NCBI RefSeq assembly: GCF_012530535.1
Contig: NZ_CP051299.1
Coordinates: 2,108,001-2,172,000, forward strand
Direction: 5' to 3'
Length of the DNA stretch: 64,000 bases
From: Microcella flavibacter
GTDB lineage: Bacteria; Actinomycetota; Actinomycetes; Actinomycetales; Microbacteriaceae
Position numbers and translations under genes: made by a program. How positions within the stretch are numbered: position 1 is the stretch's first letter; each line of letters opens with the position of its first letter. The notes under the pieces were generated by a model that made no database searches, was not told the DNA's origin, and saw only the letters and a list, made by a program, of their open reading frames with translations. Positions 34,562 to 64,000 of the stretch are shown here, in pieces.

Positions 34562-34614
34562 CGCGGCGCCGCGGCGCTCGCGCCCGCGCCGGCCCGCCGC
34601 TCGAGTCGCCCCTG

Positions 34615-34686
34615 CGTCGAGTTGCGCTTTCCTGCCGAGTTGCGCGCTCGGAACCCTCAACTCGGCACCGAACGCTCATCTCGGCG
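34615..34686. repeat. 72-bp nested palindromic repeat (copy A, 3' side of the DUF559 gene)
   Basis: The left end CGTCGAGTTGCGCT (34615-34628) is followed by an inner perfect 10-bp inverted repeat, TGCCGAGTTG (34633-34642) and CAACTCGGCA (34658-34667), around a 15-base loop. The right end CGCTCATCTCGGCG (34673-34686) is a degenerate complement of the left end. The stop codon of the minus-strand gene (34676-34678) lies inside the right arm. Copy B at 35787-35859 has the same order and orientation. Confidence 0.85.
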
Positions 34687-35740
34687 CGCCGGCACGCTCC
34701 AACAGGTGGGCGAACGCTCCTGTATCGCGCAGTGTCGTCGGCGTCCAGCGCACGACGCCGAGGCCGAGCGCGCGCAGCCGGTCCTCGCGCAGCTTCTCGT
34801 CGACGACGGCCCTGGCCGCGGATCGACCGTCGCCCGCGTCCCTCGTCAGGTACTTGGCGACACCATCGCACTCGCCGACGAGGTGCGCCTCCGGCCAGAA
34901 GAAGTCGACGACCATCGGCCCTTCGCGGTCGCGGAAGACGACCTGCTGCCTCGGCGGCGAGAATCCGAGATCGAGGATGAGCAGCAGGCTGCGCGCCTCG
35001 GCCGGCGACTCGCACCCGTCGGTCGCGAGTCGCAGCAGCGCTCGCGCCGCGCGGACTCCCCTTGCGGCGCCGAGCAGGTCCAACTCGGCGCCGACCTCCG
35101 CCGGCGTCGTGAGGGGCGACCCGTCTCGAGGCGAGAACAGTCCAGAGCACAGCAGTTCGAAGGCGGTGCGGCGCGGAGCTGTGCGAGCGACGTCGGCGAG
35201 CGTCCGTGCGGGCGTCGTCACTGGCAGTCCGTCGACGCGGTCGATCTCGGCGAGCGCATGCGAGTGTCGCGCGGTTCGTCCGCTGCTGTGCGCCGAGCAT
35301 CCCTGCGGCACGGTCAGAATGGGACGATCGGGCCACCGCGACAGCGTGCGCGCGCCGTGCAGCATCGCCGCCGATTCGTGCGAGATCACGTTGCCGACGG
35401 GAGCGACGAGACCGGCGGCGCGGGTGAGTGCGCGGAATCGATCGTCGTCGGGATGCTCGCCTCGAGCGATCGCGGACGTCGTGGCGTTGCGCCAGCGGAG
35501 CACTCCACGCACCACGGGGGTCAACTCGCCGGCGCGGACGAACGCCCGCAGCTCGCCCTCAAGCCCGCGAGCCGACCAGTCGGAGCGCCGCACGAACTCG
35601 TCGACCCACGTCGGCCGGCCGATGACCGCCGGGCCCGCCGTGGTGATGATCCCGCTGAAGCCCTCCGCGATGTGCGCCATGCGCGGAGGATGCCCGCCCG
35701 CGAGAGCGGCTCGGCGCCACCCGTGCACGATCGGGGCCAT
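34676..35740 (-). CDS. AbiEi-like/DUF559 PD-(D/E)XK nuclease-fold protein
   Basis: A 354-residue protein. The N-terminal two-thirds resemble AbiEi antitoxin-type proteins: a winged-helix region, VISHESAAMLHGARTL near residue 125 and LPVTTPARTLADVARTAPRR near residue 180. The C-terminal third is DUF559/Vsr-like, with SPAEA, then MVVDFFWPEA and LVGECDGVAKY giving the acidic residues of a PD-(D/E)XK site, and EDRLRALGLGVVRWT. No methylase or restriction partner is adjacent. The ATG at 35740 is a moderate choice; an ATG at 35680 is possible. The gene is bracketed by two copies of a palindromic repeat, and its stop lies within one of them. Confidence 0.75.
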   Translation of the reverse strand: MAPIVHGWRRAALAGGHPPRMAHIAEGFSGIITTAGPAVIGRPTWVDEFVRRSDWSARGLEGELRAFVRAGELTPVVRGVLRWRNATTSAIARGEHPDDDRFRALTRAAGLVAPVGNVISHESAAMLHGARTLSRWPDRPILTVPQGCSAHSSGRTARHSHALAEIDRVDGLPVTTPARTLADVARTAPRRTAFELLCSGLFSPRDGSPLTTPAEVGAELDLLGAARGVRAARALLRLATDGCESPAEARSLLLILDLGFSPPRQQVVFRDREGPMVVDFFWPEAHLVGECDGVAKYLTRDAGDGRSAARAVVDEKLREDRLRALGLGVVRWTPTTLRDTGAFAHLLERAGAPR

Positions 35741-35786
35741 CTCACGACCACCCCCGGTTCGGGAGGAGTCGCACGGCCTGCGCGCT

Positions 35787-35859
35787 CGTCGAGTTGCGCT
35801 CTCGATGTCGAGTTGAGGTTTCTGAAGCGACAACTCGACGGGACCGCCGCAACTCGGCG
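35787..35859. repeat. 73-bp nested palindromic repeat (copy B, 5' side of the DUF559 gene)
   Basis: CGTCGAGTTGCGCT (35787-35800) is identical to the left end of copy A. The inner stem is GTCGAGTTG (35807-35815) with CAACTCGAC (35831-35839), again around 15 bases. The outer arms CGAGTTGCG (35790-35798) and CGCAACTCG (35848-35856) pair perfectly. Compared with copy A, the inner stem changes C:G to T:A on both arms, a compensatory pair. It lies 46 bp upstream of the gene start. Confidence 0.85.
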
Positions 35860-40073: not shown

Positions 40074-40166
40074 GCGTGTCGCAACTCCTGCATCCGTGCC
40101 CGCGCTCCGCGCGCTGCCGCGACGCCTCGCCCTCGCCGCGCGAAGACTGCAGGAGTTGCGGCACGC
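40074..40166. repeat. 93-bp MITE-like element with 19-bp inverted ends (copy C)
   Basis: The left end GCGTGTCGCAACTCCTGCA (40074-40092) and the right end TGCAGGAGTTGCGGCACGC (40148-40166) are inverted complements at 18 of 19 positions, with 55 bp between them. No open frame is supported inside. It lies between the mutase gene and a membrane-protein gene. A second 93-bp copy with near-identical ends is at 63675-63767. Confidence 0.85.
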
Positions 40167-56652: not shown

Positions 56653-56657
56653 TCGCA

Positions 56658-56713
56658 CCGCGCACGACCGACGGCCCCGGGATGCTCATCCCGGGGCCGT
56701 CGGTCGTGCGCGG
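56658..56713. terminator. 26-bp perfect-stem bidirectional terminator
   Basis: The left arm 56658-56683 and the right arm 56688-56713 are exact complements around the loop GCTC. It separates sdhB from the convergent surface-protein gene. It is by far the longest perfect hairpin in the window. Confidence 0.85.
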
Positions 56714-56751
56714 TCGCCCGGCCGACGACGCCGGTCGGGCGACCGCGGGCA

Positions 56752-63632: not shown

Positions 63633-63674
63633 TTCGCGCCTCATCTGCCTGAATACGTGTACCGACGCCGGCGG

Positions 63675-63767
63675 GCGTGCCGGAAATCCTGCAATTCGGG
63701 TCCTGGACCGCGCCCGCTCTCCGTCCGGTCAAGTCTCTCCTTCACGATTGCAGGAGTTACGTCACGC
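63675..63767. repeat. 93-bp MITE-like element with 21-bp inverted ends (copy D)
   Basis: The left arm is 63675-63695 and the right arm 63747-63767, complementary at 18 of 21 positions, with 51 bp between. The right end contains TGCAGGAGTTACGTCACGC, two changes from copy C, and the total length is exactly the same. The stop codon of the minus-strand DUF559 gene (63757-63759) lies inside the right arm. Confidence 0.85.
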
Positions 63768-64000
63768 CCGGGCGATGAGCGGCGCTGGTCGCCCGGCGAA
63801 CAGCCAGAACGACACCGGGCAGATTGCCGATCACCTGCGCATAATCGACCCGCACGACCACGAATCCACGCCGAATCAGCTCGAGATCGCGAGGGTAGTC
63901 GCGCGCCTGCTGGTCGTGGTGCCACCGCCGCCCGTCCACCTCGACGACCACCCGGCCCTCGACGAGCAGATCCACGCGTCCGACGCCGGGTACCACCACC
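63757..64000 (-). CDS. DUF559/Vsr-like nuclease-fold protein, 3' part only
   Basis: The C-terminal 80 residues are visible; the gene runs off the right edge. GVGRVDLLVEGRVVVEVDGRRWH contains the Asp and Glu-Val-Asp residues of a PD-(D/E)XK/Vsr-type site, followed by RDLELIRRGFVVVRVDYAQV, the usual DUF559 ending. It corresponds to the C-terminal third of the protein at 34676-35740, though the two are clearly diverged. Whether an AbiEi-like N-terminal region is present cannot be seen. The TAA stop is within a 93-bp inverted-repeat element. Confidence 0.75.
   Translation of the reverse strand, partial: VVVPGVGRVDLLVEGRVVVEVDGRRWHHDQQARDYPRDLELIRRGFVVVRVDYAQVIGNLPGVVLAVRRATSAAHRPGVT

Follow-up and report, generated by a model that had tools for sequence, protein, structure and literature searches.

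Why should a gene for a predicted nuclease end inside the arm of a palindrome, and does the arrangement reflect chance, ordinary repeats or a working relationship between protein and DNA? The question is raised by the right-hand edge of the window (the whole stretch of Microcella flavibacter DNA analysed here, 64,000 nucleotides), which belongs to a genome of 2.62 Mb, hereafter G000. A preliminary description had proposed that two DUF559 genes of the window both end inside the right arm of a palindromic element, that both elements share the core GAGTTRCG, and that proteins and palindromes are functionally linked, for example as a domesticated or mobile system. For the gene at the window edge (gene B) the position of the stop codon was correctly described: its TAA (63757-63759) lies within GAGTTACG (63754-63761), in the right arm of an inverted repeat whose 24-nt arms (63672-63695 and 63747-63770) are 88% complementary and 51 nt apart, the 91-bp span of Table 1 being this element in the frame of its class. 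Gene B also deserves its domain name, scoring 26.7 bits against PF04480 (DUF559), above the cut-off of 20.6. Gene A does not: a profile search found no DUF559 match at E<=1 and no match to MTES_1575 either, leaving a remote homolog of gene B with 28% identity (alignment A1), and its stop codon (34676-34678) overlaps an outer degenerate half-site only, the best-paired core ending 7 bp from the stop. At the same time the observation had been understated, as each window gene is bordered by palindromes at both ends, those on either side of gene A sharing CGAGTTG half-sites.

Table 1. Genes and palindromes of the window and just beyond its right-hand end (window positions unless a contig or locus prefix is given).
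Feature	Position	Strand	Arms	Remarks
Gene A	34676..35740	minus		remote gene B homolog, AbiEi-like; PADLOC AbiEi E 9.9e-12
Gene A downstream palindrome	34614..34668		GCGTCGAGTTGCGCTTTC / GTGCCGAGTTGAGGGTTC	further GAGTTGCG at 34637-34644
Gene A downstream degenerate half-site	~34676-34688
Gene A upstream palindrome	35786..35841		TCGTCGAGTTGCGCTCTC / CCGTCGAGTTGTCGCTTC	outer half-site CGCAACTC at 35848-35855
Solo palindrome, gene B class	40075..40165		CGTGTCGCAACTCCTGCA / CGTGCCGCAACTCCTGCA	between two tandem genes
Gene B downstream palindrome	63676..63766		CGTGCCGGAAATCCTGCA / CGTGACGTAACTCCTGCA	91 bp; contains stop codon
Gene B, 3' part	63757..64000, past window end	minus		AbiEi-like winged helix + DUF559/MTES_1575 Vsr-like nuclease
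Gene B, whole ORF	C1:2171757-2172632 (L034:1462-2337)	minus		291 aa
Gene B upstream palindrome	C1:2172704-2172794 = L034:2409-2499			91 bp; beyond window

The shared core fared less well. GAGTTRCG does occur eight times in the window where 2.87 occurrences are expected, a count reached in 0 of 100 shuffles, but its polarity is opposite in the two classes (GAGTTGCG...CGCAACTC in class A, CGCAACTC...GAGTTGCG in class B). Homology of the two classes through this core was rejected for that reason; its presence in both is probably a coincidence, and it is not what generalises. The window also holds a perfect 28-bp inverted repeat with a 2-bp loop (56657-56714), which is unrelated to the gene-flanking palindromes.

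A PF04480 search of G000 returned four genes, gene B and three others scoring 30.1-39.6 bits. An inverted-repeat search found matching GTGCACAAATGCAGGAC-class palindromes on both ends of the gene at 0.88 Mb (gene III, L066) and matching TGTCCGGC-class palindromes on both ends of that at 1.76 Mb, and the gene at 0.41 Mb has CCGAACGTCGGA palindromes on both ends; all four, together with gene A, are bordered on both sides, each by its own motif. The arrangement was then scored in 75 family members from 26 Microcella genomes (full-length matches plus one broken copy, L073; the set excludes the partial match G004:C3:107292 and others that were shorter), with frames elsewhere in the same loci as controls. 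The four-arm score compares 18-mers from both arms of the upstream and downstream inverted repeats, with spans equal within 1 bp, a maximum of 108 and a threshold of at least 75. Matching palindrome pairs flank 44/75 genes compared with 2/1110 control frames. All 44 lie within 51 core genes (44/51), and the other 24 genes, which form two tree groups (21 and 3), have none (0/24); as this split was drawn after the first scores and the tree, 44/75 is the figure free of hindsight. A version of the scan without the span rule gave 38/75 genes and 11/715 frames at 69 of 90, and 37 of those 38 genes had spans equal within 1 bp. The seven core misses comprise L068, whose palindromes are present by inverted-repeat search and were missed in the scan; L112, with its motif visible at a score of 70; L116, a locus at a contig end; and L073, L078, L081 and L108. 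L073 (G001:C1:173803-174569) is a broken copy of the locus III gene, with a split match and two stops, which was left out of the tree and counted as a miss. For the gene A family in Microcella, 21 of the 26 loci tested (from 30) reach 75, a weaker figure, since this setting had no control frames and near-copies occur among the loci.

Two further controls bear on whether such pairs are a general property of these chromosomes. Edges of the unrelated GDPD family gave 0/21 (maximum 71; three of 24 loci were unscored and some scored ones adjoin a nuclease gene). AbiEi-like paralogs with a match that stops short of the nuclease part gave 0/20 (maximum 69; 20 of the 47 listed in the 26 genomes); of eight put through a Pfam scan, five carry AbiEi_4 and not one has a DUF559 or MTES_1575 match at E<=1. 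Measured from where the match begins, these paralogs (L385-L404) are about 140-200 aa long, and they lack a nuclease domain. It might be supposed that the genes landed between pre-existing host repeats, or that the pairing arose by chance, and both window genes do adjoin repeats sharing an 8-mer; with a separate motif for each gene and the three controls (2/1110, 0/21 and 0/20) against it, this explanation retains next to no probability. The functional link put forward in the preliminary description is thus supported, both by this enrichment and by the co-variation described below.

It is worth stressing that the feature which first drew attention is not the defining one. Of the 44 Microcella genes with high scores, 26 have their stop within the downstream element, a common arrangement but not a universal one, and 18 do not; the element may start as early as 55 bp before the stop or as late as 50 bp after it. 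A stop codon within the arm was therefore rejected as the hallmark. The rule is a palindrome of the same motif and the same span on either side of the gene. Nor does possession of a nuclease domain by itself entail such sites, given the 24 orthologs without a palindrome pair, 21 of which have the same active-site residues; loss of the active site as the cause of the missing palindromes in that 21-member group was rejected, since its nuclease residues are intact. The group consists of L070 (G000:C1:1257009-1257848) and 20 Microcella orthologs, all DUF559-type and at a shared locus; in some of its members (L131, L137) an upstream inverted repeat, CTCCACAATTCA, was seen.

The protein itself models as an AbiEi-like scaffold joined to a Vsr/EDxHD nuclease domain. 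All four G000 core proteins match DUF559 above cut-off and MTES_1575 (PF18741) below its own, and AbiEi_4 is found in three of the four, once above cut-off. A structure model of the Agrococcus jejuensis homolog, built on 60 aligned sequences, reached a mean pLDDT of 92.6 and a pTM of 0.88, and its secondary structure suggests a winged helix at 2-48 and a nuclease fold at 187-280, with a middle domain between them. Fold searches of the PDB matched the AbiEi antitoxin 6y8q (E 1.3e-5 over 208 columns) and I-Bth0305I 3r3p (E 1.1e-3, TM-score 0.79 by target length), with weaker matches to 3hrl (0.015) and Vsr 1cw0 (0.027), and sequence profiles matched 3hrl (6e-9) and 3r3p (0.003). Nine columns of the active site were checked in 50 core proteins and the 24 without palindromes: seven (E, Q, D, E, D, H, D) are nearly invariant, and the remaining two, an R and the first E of ESG, are variable. 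Typing of the genes on either side of A and B, and of one gene next to each of the three other G000 core genes, revealed no AbiEii (nucleotidyltransferase) toxin. Conflict systems are known to include AbiEi-type N-termini and Vsr-like nuclease domains (PADLOC matches; PMC3710099), and the nuclease might accordingly patrol for foreign DNA, with the palindromes serving as decoys or marks of self. Against such a defence or self-recognition role stand the orthologs at shared chromosomal places among the matches listed and the nature of the typed neighbours (HAD hydrolase, FGGY kinase, phosphorylase, GDPD, DapA, biotin carboxylase and pyridine nucleotide-disulphide oxidoreductase), and we consider it improbable.

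If protein and palindrome belong together, their sequences should be expected to change together, and across 98 genes they do: protein identity correlates with arm similarity (Mantel Spearman r = 0.309, compared with a maximum of 0.087 in 500 permutations), mean arm similarity rising from 6.2 of 14 at 25-30% protein identity to 12.0 above 80%. Neither of the two outcomes named in the preliminary description as refuting its proposal, a lack of enrichment or a lack of co-variation with protein clade, was thus seen, and a switch of arms accompanies divergence of the gene in the sister species discussed below. The locus of gene B, between a HAD hydrolase and an FGGY kinase, is common to at least 18 other fetched loci, yet the motifs there differ (for example CGTG(T/A)CGNAACTCCTGCA, GTTCGCAACTCAGGC and GTGCACGAACGTCTGCAG). 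Within a gene's four arms the span is equal and conservation drops outside the arms; between Microcella core genes the span varies from 74 to 104 bp. Differences in span among 504 pairs with alignable motifs are far from evenly distributed: 0-2 bp in 265 pairs, 3-8 in 16, 9-13 in 170, 14 in 10, 18-20 in 19 and 21-24 in 24. With 55 genes, one per 60%-identity cluster, 118/155 pairs are in phase with 10.75 bp, as against a mean fraction of 0.30 and a maximum of 0.41 in 300 span shuffles; at 50%-identity clusters 15 pairs remain, eight of them in phase. The genes in this test are related and the period was picked after the histogram had been seen, and for the latter reason the apparent steps of about 11 bp, and their reading as a pair of half-sites on one side of the double helix, are a strong hint and not proof. 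A histogram of centre-to-centre arm distances was discarded in favour of this motif-aligned version, frame jitter blurring the phasing.

These spacings bear directly on a role at the RNA level, in which the palindromes would be terminators or mRNA-stabilising hairpins at both gene ends. Their gene-end positions, the 26/44 stops inside the element and long arms that could pair in RNA agree with such a role; a hairpin, however, needs neither the same sequence at both ends nor a fixed but unconserved spacer, steps of about 11 bp or tracking of the protein, and the edges of the unrelated gene family show no such pattern (0/21), so that it appears very improbable.

Palindromes of the same classes also stand alone. 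Class B has seven solos in G000, and the flanks of gene B, whose arms are more irregular than those of its solos, are not among the seven places found. Class III occurs at 13 places in G000, 11 solos and its gene's own two flanks. At <=3 mismatches neither class B nor the G000 version of class III was found in the 25 other genomes. A 76-bp class is spread over 57 places in 12 of the 26 genomes (1-10 per genome), 13 of them gene flanks by position. Reversed patterns gave zero matches for all three classes. By eye, elements of class III and of the 76-bp class also have inner boxes. A grouping of solos close to their own gene, suggested by class B, is not borne out by class III, which is spread chromosome-wide. 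Upstream of a HerA-like ATPase gene in G000 three solos lie side by side, one from each of three of its own classes, whereas 18 other genomes with this gene have no solo of their own known classes there (for G024 no class is known); the cluster is best read as a gain in the G000 lineage. An identical 74-bp solo, spacer included, was seen in two species (G008:C1:2291081-2291154 and G009:C4:11530-11603).

The sister genome G005 is the closest of the 25 by GDPD identity (96%) and is assembled in one contig. When six class B solo places were compared by eye, five had no class B element in G005 and one (2393139) a half-arm remnant, so some of these absences are losses; at 2265803 G005 carries a solo of its own class III. 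The G005 gap matching the window solo (L189:11582-11638) holds a perfect 16-bp inverted repeat of other sequence, CCTTCCACAACTGCGG..., one arm of which has a single further near-match among 47 G005 stretches (L218). Within no genome was a second gene of one class seen, and the gene itself therefore does not appear to multiply; loci without the gene are present in G005, with no extra gene copies and no clean junction seen. No target-site duplication or clean insertion junction could be established, the G000/G005 alignments being too diverged at the junctions, and a dnaA pattern, searched in the fetched loci for placing the origin, had no match. The word 'mobile' in the preliminary description is supported in part, by the solos and by a three-class cluster seen in a single species, and 'domesticated' is compatible with inheritance at shared loci.

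The positions of solos bear on the main rival explanation, that of an autoregulator with a regulon: an AbiEi-type transcription factor whose gene flanks are its own operators and whose solos are operators of other genes, the sites tracking the protein because regulation must be kept. AbiEi and Rv2827c bind paired inverted repeats (PMC7319586), and the structure model matches AbiEi 6y8q. Fifteen class-76 solos (L144-L161 minus the gene flanks L152 and L157 and the misplaced L159) include eight between divergent and six between tandem genes, and several lie just upstream of -10-like boxes, recognised by eye. Enrichment in divergent promoters (8/15) is not claimed, some of these being corresponding sites of two species. 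The class-76 solos L147, L151, L154-L156 and L158 fill short divergent intergenic gaps and end a short way before -10-like boxes belonging to apparently leaderless genes, with boxes judged by eye against a consensus and gene starts taken from a simple caller. A regulator, however, has no need of a palindrome at the 3' end or of conserved nuclease residues, its AbiEi-like paralogs without a nuclease part lack palindromes (0/20), and some solos (L145, L002, L008 and L306) sit between convergent genes. With the comparison of sister species added to these points, we judge it unlikely, though a nuclease system and a regulator could both be partly true together.

That comparison concerns gene III. 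Its ortholog at the same locus in G005 (L086) is flanked by TGGCACAAATTCAGGCA palindromes in place of the GTGCACAAATGCAGGAC of G000; the G005 version is found at eight places in G005, two of them the gene flanks, and nowhere in G000 at <=3 mismatches. Among the fetched G005 stretches, counterpart regions were present for eight of the 11 class III solos of G000 and absent for L408, L409 and L412. In six of the eight the palindrome is at the same place with its arms switched (at 458 kb with one arm shifted by one base), at 2230 kb old-type arms are kept with one arm decayed, and at 232 kb the palindrome is absent. Across the eight switched elements (six solos and two flanks, 16 arms) position 11 is G in 16/16 arms in G000 and T in 16/16 in G005, position 16 is A in 16/16 and C in 15/16, and position 2 is T in 14 and G in 15, respectively. 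Spacers, with 55 positions, were identical at 50, 27, 34, 35, 37 and 35 positions in the solos and 35 and 23 in the flanks; unrelated pairs have a median of 19 and a maximum of 40. At 174 kb the spacer is 50/55 the same while both arms are switched, and the unswitched 2230 kb spacer scores 45; only these two sites support spacer orthology beyond flanking synteny, since the rest lie within the maximum for unrelated pairs, and at sites other than these two the whole element may have been replaced at a fixed place. The relic at 2230 kb, with its old-type arms, suggests the direction of the change.

Divergence within gene III is similarly uneven. Between the two species dN is 0.274 in the winged-helix part, 0.162 in the middle and 0.034 in the nuclease, and dS follows suit (0.78 and 0.84 in the winged-helix and middle parts, 0.27 in the nuclease); the higher dS outside the nuclease part suggests a recombinational exchange of the DNA-binding part. 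Purifying selection on the genes is indicated by dN/dS below 1 in the nine pairs computed. Persistence of solos at corresponding places with switched arms could equally reflect selected regulatory sites, and to that extent agrees with the regulator; the difference in motif between sister species weighs on the other side, a change between sister species being faster than is usual for a regulon.

The association extends beyond Microcella. Among the best 80 of 274 named loci, mostly from Microbacteriaceae genera, 65 reach a score of 75, compared with 6/640 frames; without 11 Microcella loci the figure is 55/69. A relative was found in 61 of 296 sampled Actinomycetota genomes. In a phylum-wide sample (24 of the 29 loci L308-L336, partial matches being left out) 17/24 reach 75, namely 3/3 from the same family and 14/21 from other families, and 7/24 fail; 184 control frames have a maximum of 76 and a 95th percentile of 72, and spans are often shorter, from 50 bp. 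As to carriers, one query each gave no plasmid match and one partial match (57% of the query) in an unannotated phage record.

What might connect these observations? Alongside the features demonstrated by comparison of sequences (flanking on two sides, the tie to nuclease-bearing members, co-variation of motif and protein, equal spans, solos scattered elsewhere and a change of motif at conserved places), the interpretation that we favour, and hold to be moderately probable, is a two-part system of a predicted nuclease and its cognate palindromes, REPtron-like but with an unrelated enzyme. One part would be the protein, in which an AbiEi-like winged helix at the N-terminus is followed by a middle domain and, at the C-terminus, a Vsr/EDxHD nuclease; the other would be the palindrome, two inverted half-sites of about 14-18 bp held a fixed number of DNA turns apart, with one palindrome at each gene end and solos in other intergenic gaps. 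A dimer might bind both arms on one face of double-stranded DNA, the nuclease would cut or nick at or near the arms, and repair of such breaks would create and maintain copies of the site. The unit would thus behave in a REPtron-like manner, as one gene with several dispersed sites, but with an enzyme of the double-strand type resembling a homing endonuclease, and when the DNA-binding part changed the sites would follow. A bolder version remains tentative, and we think it possible but more doubtful than not: a self-homogenising system, widespread in Actinomycetota, whose nuclease would cut dispersed half-sites so that repair rewrites both arms at most genomic sites while spacers can stay. For that version the 174 kb site is the most telling.

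Taken together the evidence points to an unrecognised protein-and-repeat system in bacterial chromosomes. In the open-access literature, searched by title and the start of the abstract, with preprints (bioRxiv) and most subscription journals outside its scope, no link between DUF559/AbiEi-type nuclease genes and palindromes was found among the papers listed. To our knowledge REP/RAYT is the one earlier class of protein-and-repeat systems. Genes of the DUF559 type, labelled as of 'unknown function', are frequent in these bacteria, and if each owns its palindromes they would form a testable class, the second after REP/RAYT and distinct from it in both enzyme and type of site. The switched arms of the two sister species make a joint change in the specificity of a DNA-binding protein and its genomic sites directly testable, and the more than 100 natural protein-site pairs are a potential data set on protein-DNA specificity.

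The proposed unit can be compared with three known systems. Firstly, it shares an N-terminal winged helix and its overall scaffold with AbiEi of type IV toxin-antitoxin systems (PDB 6y8q), which likewise binds paired inverted repeats: the AbiEi of Streptococcus agalactiae binds cooperatively to two inverted repeats of 23 bp, and Rv2827c to two pairs (PMC7319586). It differs in its nuclease domain, in the lack of AbiEii among typed neighbours, and in sites that flank the gene on either side and recur elsewhere. The names DUF559 (PF04480) and REase_MTES_1575 (PF18741) denote domains, for which no description of a palindrome partner was found and neither of which gene A matches. Secondly, the modelled nuclease fold and the conserved acidic and histidine residues are those of EDxHD homing endonucleases such as I-Bth0305I (PDB 3r3p), which is reported to act as a dimer on an unusually long target of nearly 60 bp (PMC3943268). 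Here, by contrast, the gene was not seen within an intron or intein, two complete sites border the gene, many other sites exist, and the scaffold is AbiEi-like. Thirdly, REPtrons combine REP palindromes with RAYT/TnpAREP (HUH) transposases, the coding sequence being bordered by palindromes (PMC8266576). Cognate palindromes bordering a gene, dispersed copies, co-evolution of protein and palindrome and a housekeeping-like gene are common to both (PMC8266576). The enzyme is different, a winged helix with a Vsr/EDxHD nuclease and no HUH protein among the matches listed (Pfam, NCBIfam and fold), and so is the site: REP hairpins are short, 20-40 bp (PMC3733652), whereas the arms here are spaced, with equal spans that measure 74-104 bp in core genes and start at 50 bp among distant relatives, and spans differing by about one helical turn suggest recognition of double-stranded DNA, unlike the single-stranded hairpin of REP. 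The number of places per class also sets the two apart, with 7-13 in the two G000 classes counted and 1-10 per genome in the 76-bp class.
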